Virus record (IMG/VR): IMGVR_UViG_3300017763_000005 | Location: 1-64,000 of that record | DNA: 64,000 nucleotides | Direction: 5' to 3' (one strand) | Source: a virus | Shown: positions 14,662 through 24,050 of the stretch, piece after piece | Layout of the letters: every line of letters starts with the position of its first letter | Position numbering within the stretch: the stretch's first letter is position 1 | Position numbers and translations under genes: made by a program | The notes under the pieces: model-generated | What the model was told of the DNA's origin: nothing | The model's database searches: none | What the model saw: the letters and a program-made list of their open reading frames with translations, nothing else

Positions 14662-15066
14662 TTATTTTATTTTATTTTTGACGTGACGATTATTTATGAC
14701 TACAAGACCTAATACCATGTTTAACTCTTTTAAGAGCTGTGGATCATGATCATGAATATAAGATGGTTCGAGATAATAATCCACTATAGTCTTAAATATA
14801 ATTAATTCTGAAAGAGAAGGTCTCTCTCCAAGCAATGGATTAAGTTCCATAATCTTATTACTTTCAGAAAGGCCATCATATGTAGTATACACATCTAATG
14901 CATTAAGTGCATACCAAACATATAGGTCAATTTTATCTTGTTCGGATAGGTGTATAGATGGTAACTTCTTCTGATTTTCCTTTAACTTTAATCCTATCAA
15001 CTTCAGAGAATGCTCTTTCTGTACAGCTTCTATATGTTTCTGGTCCCAACAGCACTCGTATCCCAT
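14662..15066 (-). CDS. DUF5658-like small membrane protein (start uncertain)
   Basis: The C-terminal 95 residues contain YVWYALNALDVYTTYDGLSE, NKIMELNPLLG and PSLSELIIFKTIV, the pattern of small membrane proteins of the DUF5658 type. The frame overlaps the end of the cyclase gene in +1 phase. No good start exists after the cyclase stop at 14933; the nearest ATG in frame is 15066, inside the cyclase gene, with AAGGA rather far upstream. Either the gene overlaps the cyclase by about 134 bases or an unusual start or frameshift is used. It is the last gene of the curli operon. Function unknown. Confidence 0.5.
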   Translation of the reverse strand: MGYECCWDQKHIEAVQKEHSLKLIGLKLKENQKKLPSIHLSEQDKIDLYVWYALNALDVYTTYDGLSESNKIMELNPLLGERPSLSELIIFKTIVDYYLEPSYIHDHDPQLLKELNMVLGLVVINNRHVKNKIK

Positions 15067-16774
15067 CGTAATTGCGAGTTTGTCCTTCGAGTCTAGCCCC
15101 AAGGTTGACGGCATCTCCAATAACGGAATAGTCAAACCGCTCTTCGGATCCCATGTTTCCAACGATGCAAGTACCTGTGTTGATACCAATACCAATGTCG
15201 ATAGTAGGAAGACCTTGTTCTTCCAGTTCTTTAATAAGTTCATCTGCTGCCTCACATATTTCTAATGATGTTTTTACAGCTTTGTTAGCATGATCTTCAC
15301 AGTCAAGTGGAGCATTCCAAAAAGCCATAATACAATCACCCATGAATTTATCAATGGTTCCACCGTTCTTTAAAACGATTTTAGTCATTGTATCTAAATA
15401 ATTATTTATAAGAACTACGAGACCTTCCGGATCGTCATTATTCTTATAGTGTTCGGATATCGGTGTAAATCCACATATATCCATAAACATAAATGTCATT
15501 TCTTTTCTTTCGCCACCAAGCTTTAAGAGCGATGGATCTTTTTGTAATTGTTTAACTAAGTCAGGAGATACATATGTACCAAATTGTTTCTTTATCTGTT
15601 GTCGTAAAACAAATTGTTTATAGAAGTTATTGAAACTCGCTGAGGTGAGTAAAAGTATATATATTATTAGAGTAGCTGATAAATCGAGGAGTATAGAAAA
15701 TTCGTACCAGGCGTAATAGGAAGCGTAGCTTACAGCAGCAGCGGAGCCGACGAAGGATACAAGCCCGATCAATATTGGAAGATAATAGACTGACAGTACT
15801 ATCAGCAGACTCCCAATTAGAATCATTCCTAACTCAGCAGCATATGTCCATTGAGGACGAGATATCGGAGAATCAGATATTATCGTCTGAAGAGCATTTG
15901 CCTGTAATTGATGAGGATATAGAAGTCCAGCTGGAGTTGTAATCTGAGGTGCTATACCTTTAGCGGTTACTCCTATAATAACTGTCTTACCTTCTAAGTC
16001 TGGTAAAGGTTCTCCATAATCATAACTATCAAAATGTGTATTCCATTTCAACCAGATACTTCCTCTTTCATCAGTAGGTATTATAAACGGTCTCAATATA
16101 ATAGATTCTATTCCTGATTCATTTAACTTAACAGTATAGGATTTCTTATTCTGTAGTGCTCGTACCGTTTCTAGTGCAAATGATGGGTAGACGTTTCCAT
16201 TGACTTGTGACATTAATGGTATCCTACGCGTCTGATTATCTACTTCTGGCGCACCATTAAGTAATCCTACTCCCCATGAATGTTTCTCTAATTCTTCTAT
16301 GTTAGTTACTAATCCTTTATATCGATAAGTAAGGTCTAGTATATCACCTGAATAACCAAATGTTGCATACCCTACATAAGGCGCTTTAGTACTTCTTCCA
16401 TTTTCATCTGCATCTTGAGCAAGTATTATACCATTTCCATTAATCCAAGAAGCAAAAACTTCATCTCCGCCAAACCTATCAGCCTCTGGAAACATAATAG
16501 TGAACCCAATCATACCCGCATTTGCATTCCTTAGATCAGAAATCACTGCTGCGTGATTCTGACGTGGCCAAGGGTATTGACCATAGGCTTCGAGTGAAGA
16601 CTCGGATATGTTCAACAACACTATATCGTTAGAATGTTCTACTGGAATTGATTGTATATATTGATCGAATATACTTAAACGAAATTGTTCTAATAATTGA
16701 GGGTCAGCTACTCTTACTCCTAAAAGTGTTATACCCAATAAAACAGTTGTCCAAATGCTTGTTAAATATTTCAT
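14933..16774 (-). CDS. CHASE2-domain class III adenylate cyclase
   Basis: 613 residues: N-terminal membrane anchor (1-22), a CHASE2 sensor domain outside the membrane (about 25-305, with YPWPRQNHAAVISDL and GKTVIIGVTAKGI), three transmembrane helices (about 311-378), then a class III nucleotidyl cyclase domain (about 425-605). Catalytic residues are present: metal-binding Asp432 (FMFMDICGFT) and Asp480 (DKFMGD), base-selecting Lys476, and Asn557/Arg561 in VIGDAVNLGARLEG. The second base-selecting position is Ser550 where class IIIb enzymes usually have Thr. It should make cAMP in response to an extracytoplasmic signal. It starts 4 bases after iscU in the curli operon. Bacterial CHASE2 cyclases are often encoded next to FecR-domain proteins, as here. 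Confidence 0.93.
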   Translation of the reverse strand: MKYLTSIWTTVLLGITLLGVRVADPQLLEQFRLSIFDQYIQSIPVEHSNDIVLLNISESSLEAYGQYPWPRQNHAAVISDLRNANAGMIGFTIMFPEADRFGGDEVFASWINGNGIILAQDADENGRSTKAPYVGYATFGYSGDILDLTYRYKGLVTNIEELEKHSWGVGLLNGAPEVDNQTRRIPLMSQVNGNVYPSFALETVRALQNKKSYTVKLNESGIESIILRPFIIPTDERGSIWLKWNTHFDSYDYGEPLPDLEGKTVIIGVTAKGIAPQITTPAGLLYPHQLQANALQTIISDSPISRPQWTYAAELGMILIGSLLIVLSVYYLPILIGLVSFVGSAAAVSYASYYAWYEFSILLDLSATLIIYILLLTSASFNNFYKQFVLRQQIKKQFGTYVSPDLVKQLQKDPSLLKLGGERKEMTFMFMDICGFTPISEHYKNNDDPEGLVVLINNYLDTMTKIVLKNGGTIDKFMGDCIMAFWNAPLDCEDHANKAVKTSLEICEAADELIKELEEQGLPTIDIGIGINTGTCIVGNMGSEERFDYSVIGDAVNLGARLEGQTRNYDGIRVLLGPETYRSCTERAFSEVDRIKVKGKSEEVTIYTPIRTR

Positions 16775-16780
16775 AAAGTG

Positions 16781-17191
16781 TTATACTGTGTTATACTTTT
16801 TTTCTTCCCAATCTTCTATAGCTTTTCTAATACTATCTTCTGCTAATACAGAACAATGTAATTTAATTGGTGGAAGATTTAATGCTTCAGCAATATCTTT
16901 ATCTTTTATTTGTTTTGCTTCTTCTATTGTATTACCTTTAAGCATTTCTACAAACATTGTAGAACTTGCGATAGCTGAACCACAACCATACGTTTTAAAC
17001 TTTACATCTACTATTCTATCGTTACCTGGATCAAGCCTTAATTGTAATTTCATTACGTCACCGCAAGCTGGAGCTCCAGCCATACCTGTTGCAACTGTTG
17101 GATCGTTAGGATCGAATCGTCCTACTGAAAATTGTTGTGGACTATTTAAAACTCCTTCGAATCTTTCTACTACTTCTTTCGAATATGCCAT
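16781..17191 (-). CDS. iscU: Iron-sulfur cluster scaffold protein IscU
   Basis: 136 residues, slightly longer than bacterial IscU (128). All cluster ligands are present: Cys43 and Asp45 in APACGDVM, Cys70 in KTYGCGSAIASS, and His112-Cys113 in LPPIKLHCSVLAED. The LPPIK motif (106-110) that binds the HscA chaperone is kept. IscU builds 2Fe-2S clusters and hands them to client proteins, so this copy should work with host IscS and HscA. It is placed between curli-operon membrane proteins and the cyclase, with TAATG coupling to the gene upstream. It is a metabolic gene acquired from bacteria; why it travels in this operon is unknown. Confidence 0.95.
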   Translation of the reverse strand: MAYSKEVVERFEGVLNSPQQFSVGRFDPNDPTVATGMAGAPACGDVMKLQLRLDPGNDRIVDVKFKTYGCGSAIASSTMFVEMLKGNTIEEAKQIKDKDIAEALNLPPIKLHCSVLAEDSIRKAIEDWEEKKYNTV

Positions 17192-17448
17192 TAGCTAAAT
17201 TTCTTTTGTATTTTTTTAAACATATAATATATAGACAAACCATAAGTTGCTAAAACTGTCATAGTAATACCTATATAAACTAATTCTAATGGATTAAGAA
17301 AAAGAACTTGCCATACGAAATTTGCAGCCGCTTCTGCATCACCCATTGCTTCTGGCATTGCCATATCATTCTCTTCAAATATATCTACTATCTCGTCCCA
17401 TTCTTCGTATGTAAGACATTCGTAATATTCTTCTGGACATTCTACCAT
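17191..17448 (-). CDS. Small membrane protein of the curli operon
   Basis: 85 residues: an acidic N-terminal half (MVECPEEYYECLTYEEWDEI) and one or two hydrophobic segments from about 45 to 75 (PLELVYIGITMTVLATYGLS), ending in KKIQKKFS. AAGGA lies about 8 bases before the ATG. It is 1 base after the curlin gene and overlaps iscU (TAATG). No family recognised. Confidence 0.7.
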   Translation of the reverse strand: MVECPEEYYECLTYEEWDEIVDIFEENDMAMPEAMGDAEAAANFVWQVLFLNPLELVYIGITMTVLATYGLSIYYMFKKIQKKFS

Positions 17449-17449
17449 T

Positions 17450-18097
17450 TTAATTTCCTTGTGTTACTGATACTGAACAACCACCAACTGTTTGGCAGTT
17501 TTGTGTTAAACTATATGTTTGATTGACAGAACCCTGTTGTAATACATTTAATGTAGTTGCATATGAACCTTGTAATGTTACTTGAGAGTTATGCGAACCA
17601 GTTCCTTTTTGCATTATATTAGTATCTGAATAAGATGATGAACCATAAAAATAAGTATGATTGTAATGACTACCACTTCCTTCTTGCCATAGGTCATGAT
17701 CTACTGAACTTGCATGTAAATCTAAGTTATGAGTATGTGTTCCATTTTGATATACATCAACATCGTTACTATTACCCCATATATGTCGACCATAGGTTGC
17801 ACCGTTTAATTGCATAACTGATTCGTTATTATTAGTACCATCAACATCACCACCCCAACCTTTACCTGGTCCCCAATATGAAACCCATGATATAGAATTT
17901 CCGGATCCAGTTTGACTTAAATCAAATACATTGTTTTGATGATCAAATGAAAATTTAATTTCGTTATCATATCCAATTTGAGTGATCTCAATATCTACGT
18001 TATCTCCGCCATTGACCTGTTCTATATGAACATGATTATCTCCGCCAAATACTATAGCGCAATATGAGAGTAACCAGAGGTATGCTATTATTTTCAT
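17450..18097 (-). CDS. Curlin-repeat protein 2 (CsgA/CsgB-like)
   Basis: 215 residues with a signal peptide (MKIIAYLWLLSYCAIVFG, cut near 19). The mature part carries irregular curlin-type repeats with the amyloid signature of Gln and Asn at fixed spacing: HIEQVNGGDNVDIEITQIGY, then LSQTGSGNSI, LWQEGSGSHYNHTYF, IMQKGTGSHNSQVTL and VLQQGSVNQTYSLTQ. Curlins cross CsgG unfolded and form extracellular beta-helical amyloid. It starts inside the FecR stop (TAATG) and has its own late promoter box 23 bases upstream, so it can be made in excess. It differs from the first curlin, suggesting major/minor or subunit/nucleator roles (inference). Confidence 0.85.
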   Translation of the reverse strand: MKIIAYLWLLSYCAIVFGGDNHVHIEQVNGGDNVDIEITQIGYDNEIKFSFDHQNNVFDLSQTGSGNSISWVSYWGPGKGWGGDVDGTNNNESVMQLNGATYGRHIWGNSNDVDVYQNGTHTHNLDLHASSVDHDLWQEGSGSHYNHTYFYGSSSYSDTNIMQKGTGSHNSQVTLQGSYATTLNVLQQGSVNQTYSLTQNCQTVGGCSVSVTQGN

Positions 18098-19257
18098 TAA
18101 TTTACCTGCCTTATGTATATATTTATATCATCACCACCATTCATTCGTATTGTTCCTTCATATCCATCAACAATAGTATTAAGTGTTACCTCAGCTCCAG
18201 CTTCGAACTTAAGATTAATAATACCATTTACATCTCTATAGAATATAATACCACCATCTTCAAGGAATACATTATATTGGCTATCTTTATTTAAACCGAG
18301 TGTTGCACCCTCAAGTTTAAACCCAGCCGATCCACCAGAGCTTGATGAAGCTTGTTTGTCTCCAAGTACCTTTTTAGTTTTTACTAATTCTTCTACAACA
18401 TCTAATAAATCTGGTAAGAATTCGCCTGCTAAAAAGTCTACATCAATACGATTATAGTCTTTATCTTCTTCGTAATAATCATCTATGGTTTTATCCAATT
18501 CATTATACTCTAAAAAATCAACATCTAATATTCCTTGATCTTTATTTAAATCATTATCCACTTGTTCTTGTATTGCTTGTTTTACTTCTGTTGGTGGATT
18601 CACAATAAACATATTATCAATCATTGATGGAGTAATACCACCAATCGTAACTGGTTTTGTTGGCATAGTATTTAAACTTTGTACCATTGTTGCTTGATAC
18701 GCTTGATTCAGAGTAATAACTCCTGCTTCATTTGTTACTGTAATCTCTCCAGATGGATCACCATTCGCATCTGGCAATAACATAATTAAACTTCTACCAA
18801 GTTCATCAATCGTTGTTGTAAAATCTGTACCACGAATACCAATCGTGGCTGTGGGTGTTTGTATATCAATGTTTGCTTTATTTACTAATCCAAGAGAACC
18901 TGAAGCAAATCTTGCTGTTCCCATTGTAAATTTCATTGACATTTTAGAGAGTGAAGGATCCGGATCATAATAGATCTCATCAATTAATACTTCACTATGT
19001 TCTTTAATATCTAATTGAGCATTATCTAAAAACTTTATTTTAAGTTTACCATTCGCTGTTTCTGCCACATCATTCAATTCGATCTCAGGCAGAGACTCTT
19101 CTGTAATTATTATTTCTTCTTGTTGTCTTTTGAGTTGAGCAGAACCTGATTGTTCTACTATAGACCCGATAGAGTCCGCCGAAACGGACCCTATGAGTAA
19201 AAAATTAACTATCGTTAGCTGTATCTTTTTGATTGATTTGAATTGTTGCATTTTCAC
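18097..19257 (-). CDS. FecR-domain secreted protein with curlin-like tail
   Basis: 386 residues with a signal peptide (about 1-28, ending GSVSADS). Residues 50-180 form a FecR domain: AQLDIKEHSEVLIDEIYYDP, MKFTMGTARFASGSLGLVNK and TPTATIGIRGTDF. The middle is acidic and low in complexity (DYYEEDKDYNRIDVDF). The last 30 residues end GGDDINIYIRQVN, very like the N-terminal repeat of the two curlins. FecR domains act in the periplasm or outside the cell and often pair with CHASE2 cyclases. A bridge between fibre and sensor is attractive but inferred. The ATG lies within the end of curlin 1 (53-base overlap). Confidence 0.82.
   Translation of the reverse strand: MKMQQFKSIKKIQLTIVNFLLIGSVSADSIGSIVEQSGSAQLKRQQEEIIITEESLPEIELNDVAETANGKLKIKFLDNAQLDIKEHSEVLIDEIYYDPDPSLSKMSMKFTMGTARFASGSLGLVNKANIDIQTPTATIGIRGTDFTTTIDELGRSLIMLLPDANGDPSGEITVTNEAGVITLNQAYQATMVQSLNTMPTKPVTIGGITPSMIDNMFIVNPPTEVKQAIQEQVDNDLNKDQGILDVDFLEYNELDKTIDDYYEEDKDYNRIDVDFLAGEFLPDLLDVVEELVKTKKVLGDKQASSSSGGSAGFKLEGATLGLNKDSQYNVFLEDGGIIFYRDVNGIINLKFEAGAEVTLNTIVDGYEGTIRMNGGDDINIYIRQVN
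18120..18127 (-). promoter_or_regulatory. Late promoter (TATAAATA) before curlin 2
   Basis: TATAAATA on the minus strand inside the 3' end of the FecR gene, 23 bases before the curlin 2 ATG, with AAGG/AGG ribosome-binding sequence in between. Confidence 0.6.
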
Positions 19258-19930
19258 TATCTACATCAAGTGTGATAATACCTTTACAAGCTGAAACGCC
19301 AGTAGGACATGTACCAGATAATTGGTTAATGTCTACATCGGCTCCAGAACCGTCAAGAGTAAAATTAATCTCTTGATAGAATCCATCTTTTTGTAAAGTA
19401 TTAATATTATTTGTACTACCAGTAATGTCAAAATTCCAAGTGACATCATCGGTTTCTACATCAACATCAAATACATTTGAACTACCTAACACTGTTAAGT
19501 CAAAGTCTAATCTTTCTGCACTAGCTAAAGAACCTTGATCCAAATCCATTGTATTTGAATCTCCAGTAATATCAACCAGAAAATTTGAACTATCTGATGA
19601 ACCAGATTGTCCTATCATCCAGTCCCAAACATTACTATCGCCATTCCACTCTAAAGTGTATGATGATGAGTCTGCTGTGACCTTACCAAAGAGTAAGTTC
19701 TCGTTACCTAACTGATCAATATTGAAAGTTAATGAAGAACCAGTAATTGGAGAAGCAGACGAAGATGAACTAAAATTATCTAGTCCAATCTTGTTACCAT
19801 ATCCTACTTGGTCAATATACAAAGTTAATGTATCACCAACTTGTGTAATATTAATTTCATTATCATCAGATGCTTGTGCAAAAGTCAAAGAACTGAAAAA
19901 TAAGCTTAGGCCTAATATATATTTTATCAT
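19205..19930 (-). CDS. Curlin-repeat protein 1 (CsgA/CsgB-like)
   Basis: 241 residues from the ATG at 19930, chosen because AAGGA lies 8 bases upstream and a signal peptide follows at once (MIKYILGLSLFFSSLTFAQA). Repeats include EINITQVGDTLTLYIDQVGY, TFNIDQLGNENLLFG, DITGDSNTMDLDQGS and VDINQLSG, with Gln-x-Gly-x-x-Asn spacing and many Ser, Asp, Asn. A Cys pair (TCPTGVSAC) sits near the C-terminus. It is a candidate amyloid subunit for export through the neighbouring CsgG pore. The ATG overlaps the csgG stop (ATGA). The repeats are looser than in E. coli CsgA, so fibre formation needs testing. Confidence 0.8.
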   Translation of the reverse strand: MIKYILGLSLFFSSLTFAQASDDNEINITQVGDTLTLYIDQVGYGNKIGLDNFSSSSSASPITGSSLTFNIDQLGNENLLFGKVTADSSSYTLEWNGDSNVWDWMIGQSGSSDSSNFLVDITGDSNTMDLDQGSLASAERLDFDLTVLGSSNVFDVDVETDDVTWNFDITGSTNNINTLQKDGFYQEINFTLDGSGADVDINQLSGTCPTGVSACKGIITLDVDSENATIQINQKDTANDS

Positions 19931-20850
19931 TTTTCTTTTCCTTTTATAACCCAAAAACCTCTATCATGTCCTTGGTTGATTAATTCTAGTACTCCTGCTT
20001 CAATAGCTGAACGTACTGCATATGTCACTGACTCATTTTTACCCACTCCGTCCTCATACTCTATTAATTGCGTACCTTGTTCTATAAACCTAAATACGTC
20101 TCCTCCACTTCCGTAAGATAGGATAGTCTTCTTACTTTGGACGTTTAATAAAACCTCTCCAGTCAGAACTGAAACAGCTCTTATAGAGATTGTGACAACA
20201 TCTTTACGATATTGTCTACTTGCACCTATACCTAGAGTCCGTGCGCCTCGTCCACCAGATAAGATGTTAGTATCGTAACCAATAATACCGCCTTCTATAA
20301 TCATTCCAGCAAATAACATTGGTTGTATTCCTTGTGCTTCGTCTTCTCCCTTAGCTTTTGCTAAGTCTTGTCTAGCACTTCGTATAATTTGTCTTTCTCG
20401 TACAAGGTGATCTAATCCTTGTCGCTCTACCACTCGGAACCAAGTTCCTCCACCTGCACTCTTTAATGCATCAATTAACATAGCATCAGCACCTTGTGTT
20501 ACTGCAGTACTAAATGAAGCTATACCATCTAAAGCTTTTCTTTGTCCTGTTAGGTCTTGGAATTTATAAACTGCTACAACTGGTTTTTTATCAGCTGGTG
20601 GTATATCTAATAATTGAAAGTATGACGGCATATTAACAATTTCAGGTACATCAACACAGATGTATGGCATTGCTTTTTTAAATACTCTACCGCTTGCTTT
20701 TACCCATTCAACTACATTATGATTATATTGATCACCCCACATATCTGGATTACAGATAGTCGGATCTTCTGTGTATCTTGGTATTTGAGCACAGCTAGAG
20801 AGTAATATAATGACTGCTAAACTAGCCGCCGTCAGGTGGTGTCGTACCAT
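19927..20850 (-). CDS. csgG: Curli secretion pore lipoprotein CsgG
   Basis: 307 residues from the ATG at 20850, which has GGGAG 6 bases upstream; an earlier in-frame ATG lacks one. A lipoprotein signal ends at Cys20 (IILLSSCAQ). The rest aligns by eye with E. coli CsgG: VVAVYKFQDLTGQ, FSTAVTQGADAMLIDALK, WFRVVERQGLDHLVRERQII, EGGIIGYDTNILSGG, GARTLGIGA and KTILSYGSGGDVFRFI. CsgG forms a nonameric outer-membrane channel for curlin export. E. coli CsgG is 277 residues; the extra length is an N-terminal insert (about 25-75). It overlaps csgF by 29 bases. Confidence 0.95.
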   Translation of the reverse strand: MVRHHLTAASLAVIILLSSCAQIPRYTEDPTICNPDMWGDQYNHNVVEWVKASGRVFKKAMPYICVDVPEIVNMPSYFQLLDIPPADKKPVVAVYKFQDLTGQRKALDGIASFSTAVTQGADAMLIDALKSAGGGTWFRVVERQGLDHLVRERQIIRSARQDLAKAKGEDEAQGIQPMLFAGMIIEGGIIGYDTNILSGGRGARTLGIGASRQYRKDVVTISIRAVSVLTGEVLLNVQSKKTILSYGSGGDVFRFIEQGTQLIEYEDGVGKNESVTYAVRSAIEAGVLELINQGHDRGFWVIKGKEK

Positions 20851-21364
20851 AGTCGCTCCCGAAATATCCACTGCCGATTGGGATTTCAATTATTGTTTCC
20901 GTACCGTCGGTATCTACTATAGTCATTTTAATAAATTCTGAACCATCTGCATTGGTTATCACTTCATATGTTACTGTTGAACCTTCTAATACAAATGATC
21001 CAAACCTTACGGCATTATCATTTTGAAACATACTTTCTACAAGTTGTTTCGACATTTGAGCATATATTCTTGATTCTAAGTTACGAATGAATTTTGCTAA
21101 TGTCGTATTATCGGCTTCTCTTTGTGCTGCTTTTTCTGCTGCAGCTAATGCTTCTTCTATTGATTTCTTACGAGAGAACTCTTGATTTTCTACTGTAAGA
21201 TAATGAGATGCTGTACCTTGTCCACTAAAGGAAGGATTTTTAAACTTATGTACAATTTCTGTGGCGTTAGCAGGAGCAACAGCCATAATAGATACTATAA
21301 AGAGACTAACTAAAGTAAATACTTCAGCTTGTTCCCTTATCTTCTTTATTTTTCTTTCTTTCAT
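20822..21364 (-). CDS. csgF: Curli assembly factor CsgF
   Basis: 180 residues from the ATG at 21364. A signal peptide or N-terminal anchor spans about 14-35 (VFTLVSLFIVSIMAVAPANA), followed by TEIVHKFKNPSFSGQG, which matches the CsgF N-terminus that plugs into the CsgG pore (FRNPNFGGN in E. coli). The C-terminal half (EVITNADGSEFIKMTIVDTD) is the beta-sheet domain. E. coli CsgF is 138 residues. CsgF links the secretion pore to fibre nucleation at the cell surface. No CsgE is seen in the window. It overlaps the upstream membrane-protein gene by about 41 bases. Confidence 0.9.
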   Translation of the reverse strand: MKERKIKKIREQAEVFTLVSLFIVSIMAVAPANATEIVHKFKNPSFSGQGTASHYLTVENQEFSRKKSIEEALAAAEKAAQREADNTTLAKFIRNLESRIYAQMSKQLVESMFQNDNAVRFGSFVLEGSTVTYEVITNADGSEFIKMTIVDTDGTETIIEIPIGSGYFGSDYGTTPPDGG

Positions 21365-21590
21365 TCTCTCTGTATTCCAATACCACGTCAACCTTTTGCT
21401 GGAGACGAATTAAGTCTTGATCGAGCATTCTCATCTGATCAATAACTCTTATTAATTGGAAATGCATTTTTTCAGTAGCTGGATCTAAATGCTCACTTAT
21501 AAAATTCCATACAAAGTAAACAAAATATCCTAATCCTACAACCATCACGGTGGGAAAGCCATAGTTGGCTATTAAATCAGCAATTTCCAT
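21324..21590 (-). CDS. Small membrane/coiled-coil protein A
   Basis: 88 residues: an N-terminal transmembrane helix (about 8-32, FPTVMVVGLGYFVYFVWNFI) and a long charged coiled coil (HFQLIRVIDQMRMLDQDLIR onward). Same layout as the gene just upstream (21594-21890), so the two look like paralogues. The shape resembles BhlA/UviB-type small phage membrane proteins, some of which act as holins; that link is weak. It heads into csgF with an overlap. Confidence 0.7.
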   Translation of the reverse strand: MEIADLIANYGFPTVMVVGLGYFVYFVWNFISEHLDPATEKMHFQLIRVIDQMRMLDQDLIRLQQKVDVVLEYRENERKKNKEDKGTS

Positions 21591-21593
21591 ATT

Positions 21594-21890
21594 CTAGTCT
21601 CTTCTTACGTCAAGCTTACCATCTTCGACAAAATTCTCAGCGCGAGCTATTCGGCCGATGTCAGGTCTTAATTCTAATGCGCTACTTACGAGTAAGTCAA
21701 TCTTGACCATTTCATTACTCATTGTTCTTGCTCTGTTCTCTAAACTTTCGCAAAAAATAGTTAGCGTCTTTATATTATCAACAACACCTTCAAGTATTTG
21801 TTTGATAATAGTAAATATGAAAAATCCCATTACTAATGCTCCTGCTATAGGTAATCCTACATCGGAGATAAGCTGGAAAATATCTTCCAT
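21594..21890 (-). CDS. Small membrane/coiled-coil protein B
   Basis: 98 residues: one transmembrane helix (about 11-33, VGLPIAGALVMGFFIFTIIK) and a helical tail with Leu/Val heptads and Arg-rich end. Similar layout to the following gene. It follows the 84-residue gene after 1 base and precedes protein A by 3 bases, so all three are co-translated. Function unknown; a membrane accessory of the secretion system or a holin-like protein are both possible. Confidence 0.7.
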   Translation of the reverse strand: MEDIFQLISDVGLPIAGALVMGFFIFTIIKQILEGVVDNIKTLTIFCESLENRARTMSNEMVKIDLLVSSALELRPDIGRIARAENFVEDGKLDVRRD

Positions 21891-21891
21891 A

Positions 21892-22146
21892 TTAGTTAGT
21901 GTACGCTACTCCTACTGCGAGAGAAGTTGCAACACCTGTTAATGTATCTGTTGAAGCTTTTTCTATATAAGCTACTTCACCAGCTGCTAAAGTTACTGTA
22001 CCTAAAGTAGTACCACCTGCATTTTTCCAAGTAATTGCTTGAACTGATGTTTTATTATTCAATACTCTTACTACTTTCGCAAATCCTACATTAGATGCAG
22101 AAGATAAATTGCCCTCTGATCCCAATAGTTTAATTGTACTTGCCAT
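21892..22146 (-). CDS. Small beta-rich virion-like protein
   Basis: 84 residues: MASTIKLLGSEGNLSSASNV, GFAKVVRVLNN, then alternating strands (AGGTTLGTVTLAAGEVAYIE) and a DTLTGVATSLAVGVAYTN ending. This compact beta-sandwich pattern recurs in small marine phage virion proteins. Ribosome binding site GAGGAA lies 8 bases before the ATG. It is the first gene of the curli operon, 33 bases after the late promoter. Confidence 0.75.
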   Translation of the reverse strand: MASTIKLLGSEGNLSSASNVGFAKVVRVLNNKTSVQAITWKNAGGTTLGTVTLAAGEVAYIEKASTDTLTGVATSLAVGVAYTN

Positions 22147-22178
22147 GTTTTTTCCTCATTAAAAAATTCTAACAATGT

Positions 22179-22186
22179 TATTTATA
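22179..22186 (-). promoter_or_regulatory. Late promoter (TATAAATA) of the curli operon
   Basis: TATAAATA on the minus strand, 33 bases before the first gene of the operon and just downstream of the terminator of the previous unit. It implies that the curli, IscU and cyclase genes are expressed late. Confidence 0.75.
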
Positions 22187-22207
22187 ATAGCTGGAATGCC
22201 AAGACAT

Positions 22208-22235
22208 AAAAAAAGGGACCTAAAAAGATCCCTTT
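22208..22235 (-). terminator. Rho-independent terminator after the frameshifted lipoprotein
   Basis: On the minus strand, AAAGGGATC / GGTCCCTTT arms (one mismatch) around a short loop are followed by a T-run. It lies 4 bases past the TAA of the -1 frame extension, which supports that extension being the true end of the coding unit. Confidence 0.85.
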
Positions 22236-22238
22236 AAT

Positions 22239-22391
22239 TTATTGTTCGCACTCTTCCGGATATTGCGTACAGTAGCGTTTCACAATTTTAATGATAACTG
22301 TTATATCATTAGTTGCTTCTCCAACTACTACTCTCTCTTTTTCAATATCCTTTTTTTGTTTAGGATATTGTGGAAAGAGAGACCAAGCTAC
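22239..22391 (-). CDS. -1 frame extension of the lipoprotein (no start codon of its own)
   Basis: An open frame of 50 codons plus TAA that begins exactly at the stop of the lipoprotein gene in the -1 frame: VAWSLFPQYPKQKKDIEKER, then VVVGEATNDITVIIKIVKRY and CTQYPEECEQ. It contains no ATG and only a late internal GTG, so it cannot be an independent gene in the usual way. The terminator starts right after its TAA. I interpret it as the tail of a frameshift product of the 22388-22693 gene. Two Cys and an acidic end suggest a small folded domain. Confidence 0.55.
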   Translation of the reverse strand, partial: VAWSLFPQYPKQKKDIEKERVVVGEATNDITVIIKIVKRYCTQYPEECEQ

Positions 22392-22397
22392 TTTCCC
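22343..22397 (-). promoter_or_regulatory. Candidate -1 ribosomal frameshift site in the lipoprotein gene
   Basis: Slippery heptamer G GGA AAG (22397-22391) in the right phase directly before the TAG stop; GGGAAAG is the heptamer used by phage lambda's tail gene G. A perfect 8-bp stem-loop (CAATATCC with GGATATTG, minus strand 22370-22343) starts 20 bases downstream. Confidence 0.6.
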
Positions 22398-22693
22398 TCA
22401 GGTTGAGGAGTTTGTAGTTTGTCAGTTTCTTCGTCGATTTTGGCAGCTGCTTTTTGAACAACTCCAGTACCAGTATTGACTGCAGTTTTACCTACATCAA
22501 CAGCTGTTTCAACAACGAATTCACCAGTGGATACTACATCCGAAGCTACAGCTGAAACAACTGTTGAAGTACCTTTTACAGCACCGTCAACAACTCCAGT
22601 TGTAAACTCCTTTGTTCCTTCTACGACGCTTCCAATTGAAGCACAATTCGTAATAAGAACTAATCCGGCGAACAGAGTAAATAAATTTTTCAT
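22388..22693 (-). CDS. Small lipoprotein, possible frameshift parent
   Basis: 101 residues from the ATG at 22693, which has GGAG 6 bases upstream. A lipoprotein-like signal (MKNLFTLFAGLVLITNCASI) places the lipid on Cys17, though Asn at the position before Cys is unusual. The mature part is a low-complexity amphipathic sequence with 11-residue-like repeats (VVEGTKEFTTGVVDGAVKGT, VVSAVASDVVSTGEFVVETA), likely helical and membrane-associated. It ends EGK followed by TAG, where a -1 slip would add 50 residues. It has its own late promoter. By position after the lysozyme it could act in lysis; that is a guess. Confidence 0.75.
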   Translation of the reverse strand: MKNLFTLFAGLVLITNCASIGSVVEGTKEFTTGVVDGAVKGTSTVVSAVASDVVSTGEFVVETAVDVGKTAVNTGTGVVQKAAAKIDEETDKLQTPQPEGK

Positions 22694-22751
22694 TTTATTC
22701 TCCATTGCTTTAATTATAATAGTAGACCAACTGTCATACTATCTCCAATTA

Positions 22752-23003
22752 TTATTTATACAAGTACATGTCCTGTTCATCTAATGACTTAGCCATTATT
22801 ATTACTGATAACAGATCTTGTTCTCTTGCTATCTCTTCTAGTAAACACTTCGCAACTATACATTTAAATATAACAGCTGCAATTAATATTGTACCAAATA
22901 AAAGATAGAAAGCGTAAAAATAATAAGACAGAATAATCGCATGTAAACCCACAATAAGGCCTACATGCAATTTAATTGTGTGTGTATATTTACTTAGAAT
23001 CAT
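22752..23003 (-). CDS. Small two-span membrane protein
   Basis: 83 residues with two hydrophobic segments, about 12-33 (LHVGLIVGLHAIILSYYFYA) and 34-52 (LLFGTILIAAVIFKCIVA), then an acidic C-terminal helix. It overlaps the 56-residue membrane gene upstream. With that gene and the nearby lysozyme it could form part of a holin set. No family recognised. Confidence 0.65.
   Translation of the reverse strand: MILSKYTHTIKLHVGLIVGLHAIILSYYFYAFYLLFGTILIAAVIFKCIVAKCLLEEIAREQDLLSVIIMAKSLDEQDMYLYK
22753..22760 (-). promoter_or_regulatory. Late promoter (TATAAATA) of the lipoprotein gene
   Basis: TATAAATA on the minus strand inside the last codons of the 83-residue gene, 60 bases before the lipoprotein ATG. 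Confidence 0.65.
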
Positions 23004-23160
23004 TCTTATGTTTTAAGAATTGTTCTATAAAATCATTTGAATGCCAATAGGAATCCAAACCAATATCAATCATTAATGCTATTAAAACAAAAGTAAGTAT
23101 GATTGACAGATACACGTTGATTGCGGCTGATATCTTCAGCCATTTGATCATATGTTTCAT
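22990..23160 (-). CDS. 56-residue single-span membrane protein
   Basis: Encodes MKHMIKWLKISAAINVYLSI followed by ILTFVLIALMIDIGLDSYWH and a charged tail: basic N-terminus, one long transmembrane helix, mixed tail. It overlaps the next membrane gene by 14 bases. It may be a holin or antiholin of the lysozyme unit, but the sequence does not decide. Confidence 0.55.
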   Translation of the reverse strand: MKHMIKWLKISAAINVYLSIILTFVLIALMIDIGLDSYWHSNDFIEQFLKHKNDSK

Positions 23161-23175
23161 AATCTAAAGTGCAAC

Positions 23176-23484
23176 TTATTTAGCTGCTGTTTTTCTGGTT
23201 CTGCGTTTAGCTGGAGCTTTCTTTGCTACTGTTTTCTTAGCCGGTGCTTTTTTAGCAGCTGGCTTCTTAGCAGCAGGTTTTCTTTTAGCTGGAGCTTTTT
23301 TCTTAGATGGTGTTTTACCATCTTTATAAGCTTCATTCCTGTGCTTTGTAGCAGGATCGTCTTTTACATAACGACCCTTATCATTTCTTGCTCTAACTCC
23401 TGACGCAGGTTTGTTGGAATCATAAACAGCATATATTCCTGCTGCTAATAGAATTCCACCAATCACTATGAATGCTATATCCAT
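23176..23484 (-). CDS. Membrane-anchored histone H1-like basic protein
   Basis: 102 residues: an N-terminal transmembrane helix (MDIAFIVIGGILLAAGIYAV), a short linker, then from about 55 to the end a Lys/Ala/Pro-rich tail with repeated A-[AP]-A-K-K units (KKAPAKRKPAAKKPAAKKAP). The tail is like the C-terminus of histone H1 and of bacterial H1-like proteins, which bind and condense DNA. Anchored to membrane it could tether DNA to the envelope or act on anionic lipids. AGGAG precedes the ATG. It follows the lysozyme gene. Confidence 0.75.
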   Translation of the reverse strand: MDIAFIVIGGILLAAGIYAVYDSNKPASGVRARNDKGRYVKDDPATKHRNEAYKDGKTPSKKKAPAKRKPAAKKPAAKKAPAKKTVAKKAPAKRRTRKTAAK

Positions 23485-23496
23485 AATATAATCCTC

Positions 23497-23649
23497 CTAG
23501 TCTTTATAGTTATAATTTCTGAACTCTTCCCATTTGAAATAGTTCTTTCTCTCATGACACCAAAAATTCCCTTTATGTTTCGGTTGTTTTAGATCTCCTC
23601 GAGTCTCTTCATTAGCCTTTCGGCTCGGTTTGTCACTTGACTGTACCAT
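23497..23649 (-). CDS. Possible 50-residue basic protein overlapping lysozyme
   Basis: The last 30 codons (KGNFWCHERKNYFKWEEFRN, YNYKD) lie beyond the lysozyme stop and look coding, but the only ATG (23649) is inside the lysozyme gene and has no good ribosome binding site. The start is uncertain and the gene may not be real. Confidence 0.35.
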   Translation of the reverse strand: MVQSSDKPSRKANEETRGDLKQPKHKGNFWCHERKNYFKWEEFRNYNYKD

Positions 23650-24050
23650 CTTGAATCTCTGCCTTCTTTGGCAGCCTCCGTCCAATCACCACTTTGCAGC
23701 GCTGCATTGTGGTTCTTAAATTTGCTCAAGCGCGTGAGTCCCATATTAAACATCATGTTTGCTACGATTTGTTTCACTTCTTGTGGATAACCGTCCCAAC
23801 CATCATGTAGTTTTTTACAATCATCGATCACTGATTGTACGTCTTTTTCAAAACATTCGTTTACACGATCTTCTGAAACTTCAGTGCCAACGTCCTGACC
23901 GAATTCCTTGTCCTCTTTTATAACTAGATGTCCTATTCCAAATGTAGGATAGCCAAGATGATCTTTGTATATTTTATATACTACACCTTCATCTACTTTT
24001 AGTGTTTCTTTTAATTGTTCTATGTCAATGTCTTTGCTATTCCAAAACAT
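23589..24050 (-). CDS. e: T4-type lysozyme (endolysin, GH24)
   Basis: 153 residues, near T4 lysozyme (164). The catalytic triad is in place: Glu21 (KVDEGVVYKIYKDHLGYPTF), Asp30 and Thr36, each exactly 10 positions after T4 Glu11, Asp20 and Thr26. GIGHLV follows as in the family, and the C-terminal QVTNRAERLMKRL matches the last helices. It cleaves the glycan strands of peptidoglycan and needs a holin to reach the periplasm, as no signal peptide is present. Small membrane-protein genes nearby could supply that. It lies in the late unit started at 25068-25075. Confidence 0.93.
   Translation of the reverse strand: MFWNSKDIDIEQLKETLKVDEGVVYKIYKDHLGYPTFGIGHLVIKEDKEFGQDVGTEVSEDRVNECFEKDVQSVIDDCKKLHDGWDGYPQEVKQIVANMMFNMGLTRLSKFKNHNAALQSGDWTEAAKEGRDSRWYSQVTNRAERLMKRLEEI

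Follow-up and report, generated by a model that had tools for sequence, protein, structure and literature searches.

A conserved -1 frameshift signal and the predicted two-form product of a small lipoprotein gene in uncultured marine T4-like phages

Known phage frameshifts are dominated by those of tail assembly chaperones, of which gpG/gpGT of phage lambda, with the slippery heptamer G GGA AAG, is the closest to the case described here. In lambda, the shift near the end of a small gene adds a C-terminal domain to a minority of the product. In the dnaX gene of E. coli (tau/gamma), a -1 frameshift at A AAA AAG, with a downstream stem-loop at 5-9 nt, allows one gene to give two products with a common N-terminus, and the shift makes the shorter product. 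We examined a lipoprotein gene in a 64-kb stretch (the window) of a 97.6-kb IMG/VR virus record from a marine T4-like phage. In this phage the DNA polymerase gp43 is 52% identical to that of phage C48C1 and 46-47% identical to those of cyanophages, and CsgG is 53% identical to that of Pelagibacter phage HTVC008M. The gene carries the exact lambda heptamer, but it is not a tail gene, does not lie between tail tube and tape measure, and has no homology to the tail assembly chaperones. In contrast to dnaX, the shift here bypasses a stop codon that touches the heptamer and makes the longer product, and no upstream Shine-Dalgarno stimulator was identified. The product is an envelope lipoprotein.

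The features of the locus are as follows.
22388..22693, minus strand: short form, a 101-aa lipoprotein starting at ATG 22693 and ending at TAG 22390-22388
22643..22654, minus strand: lipobox ITNC, with Cys17 (PSC, QGC or VSC in relatives)
22412..22645, minus strand: 11-residue (hendecad) repeat region, predicted rod, Cys17 plus 7 x 11 residues up to ...TDKLQ
22391..22397, minus strand: slippery heptamer G GGA AAG
22388..22390, minus strand: 0-frame stop TAG directly after the heptamer
22374..22382, minus strand: 5' arm of the outer (basal) stem, TCTCTCTTT, 8 nt from the heptamer
22332..22340, minus strand: 3' arm of the outer stem, AAAGAGAGA
22362..22370, minus strand: 5' arm of the inner stem, CAATATCCT
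22343..22351, minus strand: 3' arm of the inner stem, AGGATATTG
22239..22391, minus strand: -1 frame extension, 50 codons plus stop TAA
22248..22274, minus strand: conserved YCxxxPxxC motif (YCTQYPEEC) at the end of a predicted C-terminal helix
22212..22235, minus strand: intrinsic-terminator-like hairpin after the extension
22752..23003, minus strand: upstream 83-aa membrane protein
22990..23160, minus strand: upstream 56-aa single-TM protein (MKHMIKWLKI...)

The lipoprotein start is preceded by GGAG 7 nt upstream, and the gene ends GAG GGA AAG TAG. The -1 frame from GTA (22391) is open for 50 codons (VAWSLFPQYPKQKKDIEKERVVVGEATNDITVIIKIVKRYCTQYPEECEQ) and closes with TAA at 22241-22239, a few bases before the terminator-like stem, which starts at 22235 and has 10 pairs plus a T tail. 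The junction peptide of the fused sequence is ...PEGKVAWSLFPQYPK. The -1 frame has no ATG, and its only in-frame GTG is near the end. A sequence-only reading had proposed this frameshift and a hairpin 20 nt after the heptamer; its coordinates were confirmed and its interpretation was supported. The hairpin (AATATCCT/AGGATATT), however, is only the inner half of a stem of ~18 bp whose base lies 8 nt from the heptamer. The whole structure folds at -22.7 kcal/mol against a shuffle mean of -10.5 (z -4.75), and the locus of a close relative (L005), with changed arms, still folds (-24.7, z -5.3). The heptamers and a 5-9 nt spacer belong to the known shift-prone class of E. coli (PMC5009743). A search of Rfam with 22100-22800 gave only sub-threshold chance matches.

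We scanned IMG/VR with the lipoprotein and the extension. Because several of the loci retrieved (numbered L) were the same contig fetched more than once, only distinct sequences were counted. Searching for the extension motif with any X XXY YYZ heptamer allowed in the right frame gave 72 distinct lipoprotein/extension pairs, and in every one the heptamer at the junction was AAAAAAG or GGGAAAG. Restricted to complete extensions, there were 64 distinct junctions, 51 with AAAAAAG and 13 with GGGAAAG, and the 0-frame stop followed the heptamer directly or one codon (GAC, GAT, GGA or AAG) later. Relatives extended down to ~28-59% identity, and lipoproteins as low as about 30-40% identical to that of the window kept the arrangement. 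The lipobox Cys was invariant in 35 aligned members.

The extension is under purifying selection. Ka/Ks in the -1 frame was 0.233, 0.208 and 0.223 in three groups of relatives (D, E and B+C), close to the values of 0.204, 0.202 and 0.183 for the lipoprotein. In group A, the close group of the window itself, the value was 0.57, but too few changes exist there. The Y, C, P and C of YCxxxPxxC were invariant. Lys codons in the repeat region are 172 AAA to 33 AAG (84% AAA), yet the last codon of the heptamer is always AAG.

On a maximum-likelihood tree, GGGAAAG occurred in about four separate places among AAAAAAG clades (the window group; L198/L201/L207; L220; and L196/L211), although long branches make the placement of L196, L211 and L220 uncertain. 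The heptamer class is therefore kept while its letters change. In most clades stems sit 5-8 nt downstream, with unrelated sequences in different clades. GGGAAAG members have the strongest stems (median z -4.2), AAAAAAG members with other stop contexts are intermediate (-1.9), and AAAAAAG-TAG members show no significant structure (-1.0). In the GAC/GAT-TAA clade, 92.6% of cells paired against 44-59% with slid partners, 4 of 11 pairs had changes on both sides, and the covariation score of 0.347 was reached by 0 of 500 shuffles. Relatives whose heptamer is gone also lack the extension: L251, L254, L255 and L258 read AAA CAG GAC TGA and run straight into a terminator, and L292, L302 and L306 likewise lack both. 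The exception is one pair of contigs, L200 (560-645) and L206 (2950-3035), in which a YCSKNPKECE extension survives in the +1/-2 frame without a heptamer, after GAA AAG AAG TAG. This remains unexplained.

Taken together, these observations indicate that the frameshift signal is near certain, and that a programmed -1 frameshift giving a short and a long lipoprotein is by far the best reading, although it rests on comparative sequence without protein or ribosome-profiling data. Most ribosomes would stop at TAG and release the 101-aa lipid-anchored form. A fraction would pause on G GGA AAG, held by the stem beginning 8 nt downstream, slip back one base (GGA AAG re-pairing as GGG AAA), bypass the stop and add 50 residues, a charged linker plus a C-terminal helix capped by YCxxxPxxC. 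That the slippage is ribosomal, and its efficiency, are inferred from dnaX and lambda G-GT. Standard gene callers miss the extension, so the long protein is missing from databases.

The mature lipoprotein is built of exact 11-residue repeats. The distance from the lipobox Cys to the Gln of the conserved (T/S)DxLQ is 66 or 77 residues in 61 of 61 scorable members, and hydrophobicity autocorrelation peaks at lag 11. The window has seven blocks and most others have six. AlphaFold gave only helices, at low confidence (mean pLDDT 56). If the rod is a continuous helix, it may be inferred to be about 10-11.5 nm long. The extension, 31-60 aa among the members, was predicted as a poorly structured linker plus one helix (residues 30-43, pLDDT about 85) ending at YCxxxPxxC, with a mean pLDDT of 67. 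A lipid-anchored helical rod recalls small bacterial lipoproteins such as Lpp, and the exact period recalls the 11-residue amphipathic repeats of the alpha-synuclein type. A PDB profile search gave weak matches to alpha-synuclein (E 0.054) and HdeB (E 0.6), but these are resemblances only, without significant homology.

The family appears to be previously undescribed. Nothing in Pfam, PHROGs or NCBIfam matched above cut-off. DNA and protein searches of INPHARED with the window, B-, D- and long-extension members found no relatives, apart from weak hits in one search, and a search of genome contigs gave a single 33-residue match in a Shapirobacteria MAG, which was treated as chance. No hidden frameshift lipoprotein was found in the whole of HTVC008M, most of C48C1 and 45 kb of Melnitz. 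We found no paper on a frameshifted phage lipoprotein in the open-access literature searched, which excluded subscription journals and preprints.

The gene changes place between clades. It lies by lysozyme and the curli cluster in the window, between gp43 and a nuclease gene in the B/C clades, and between curlin-like and adenylate cyclase genes in most distant clades. The cluster of the window (14933-21391, minus strand) comprises CsgG, curlin-repeat-like and FecR-like proteins, followed by an IscU-like gene and an adenylate cyclase gene, as in the pelagimyophages HTVC008M and Melnitz. Its function is unknown in the literature (PMC7029224, PMC9004378), and neither paper mentions a frameshift lipoprotein. 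The two-form lipoprotein, which sits beside these unexplained clusters, offers a handle on them. Two unannotated small membrane proteins also travel with the gene. The small TM gene (MKHMIKWLKI...), usually followed by a second membrane protein (~80-120 aa in most clades), has a homologue within ~1.2 kb upstream in 35 of 54 scorable junctions and in none of seven loci without the extension. Those seven include four near-identical loci, so the association is only suggestive; 19 of 54 junctions lack the gene nearby.

The role of the two forms is inferred only from their anatomy and neighbours. The most likely mechanism is that frameshifting sets the fraction of an outer-membrane rod lipoprotein that carries a partner-binding, possibly disulfide-forming tail. 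Both forms might sit on the periplasmic face of the outer membrane in one assembly, with the Cys-capped helix contacting a partner, most likely one of the two small membrane proteins encoded just upstream. This envelope-assembly role is tentative. A more specific version is doubtful: frameshifting would act as a stoichiometry dial for an uncharacterised envelope device, in which a rod with its length fixed in 11-residue steps carries, in a ribosome-set fraction, a helix that docks on two small inner-membrane proteins, linking the membranes or the phage curli-type pore during infection.

An alternative role as the outer-membrane spanin of the phage, the long form being o-spanin-like with Cys, is unlikely. 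In the window the gene does lie between a T4-type lysozyme (23589-24050) and a weakly holin-like gene (21594-21890), and the T4 o-spanin PseT.2 also needs two Cys (PMC6139136). However, the phage has a separate pair of overlapping Rz/Rz1-like spanin genes at 38075-37226 (minus strand; phrog_739 and phrog_812), no i-spanin-like partner lies beside the lipoprotein, and in other clades the gene is not near lysis genes.

ALTERNATIVES. Polymerase slippage, in which some mRNAs would carry an indel that fuses the frames, could act on the runs of 7 A in the AAAAAAG clades with GAA AAA AAG, but not on GGGAAAG. The window and the other GGGAAAG members have only 3 G and 3 A, too short for polymerase slippage, yet they keep the same extension, and stems are strongest exactly in those members. 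This explanation is very unlikely. A separate small gene, started internally or by re-initiation after the stop, is about as improbable. Some clades do have ATG codons inside the extension (TAMLLEAMM; DIKMLI), so internal initiation of a short peptide cannot be excluded there, and only 7 of 64 extensions have no ATG, GTG or TTG at all before the motif. Nevertheless, 55 of 64 have no start codon upstream of the last helix, no start position is conserved, and no full-length, ATG-started separate gene was found. The frame, the heptamer and the residues directly after it (V, or G-L) are conserved, which a separate gene would not need, and heptamer and extension are lost together. Although all the data come from metagenome-derived contigs, a decayed fusion or an assembly error is excluded by the conservation of the same -1 relation in 64 distinct junctions with Ka/Ks about 0.2 in three groups, and no in-frame fusion was found among complete genes.

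The sequence-only reading had rested mainly on a parallel with the gp26/gp51 junction of the same phage (4585-4780, plus strand), said to share the heptamer, the stop and the hairpin spacing (19 against 20). This argument was wrong. gp26 ends AGT TTT TTT ACA TAA, a T7 run rather than GGGAAAG, and the spacing was compared with the wrong stem, so the site cannot be used as evidence of a shared recoding style. However, the gp51 frame is open in -1 from the T run, and the T-run/stop/-1 arrangement is conserved in HTVC008M, Melnitz, C48C1 and L069 (loci L310, L316, L317 and L069). That site may well be a real frameshift too, likely at T TTT TTN. We also noted, near the lipoprotein gene, a 102-aa protein (23176-23484, minus strand) with one TM and a Lys/Ala/Pro-rich, histone H1-like tail that gave a weak match to Pfam HC2.
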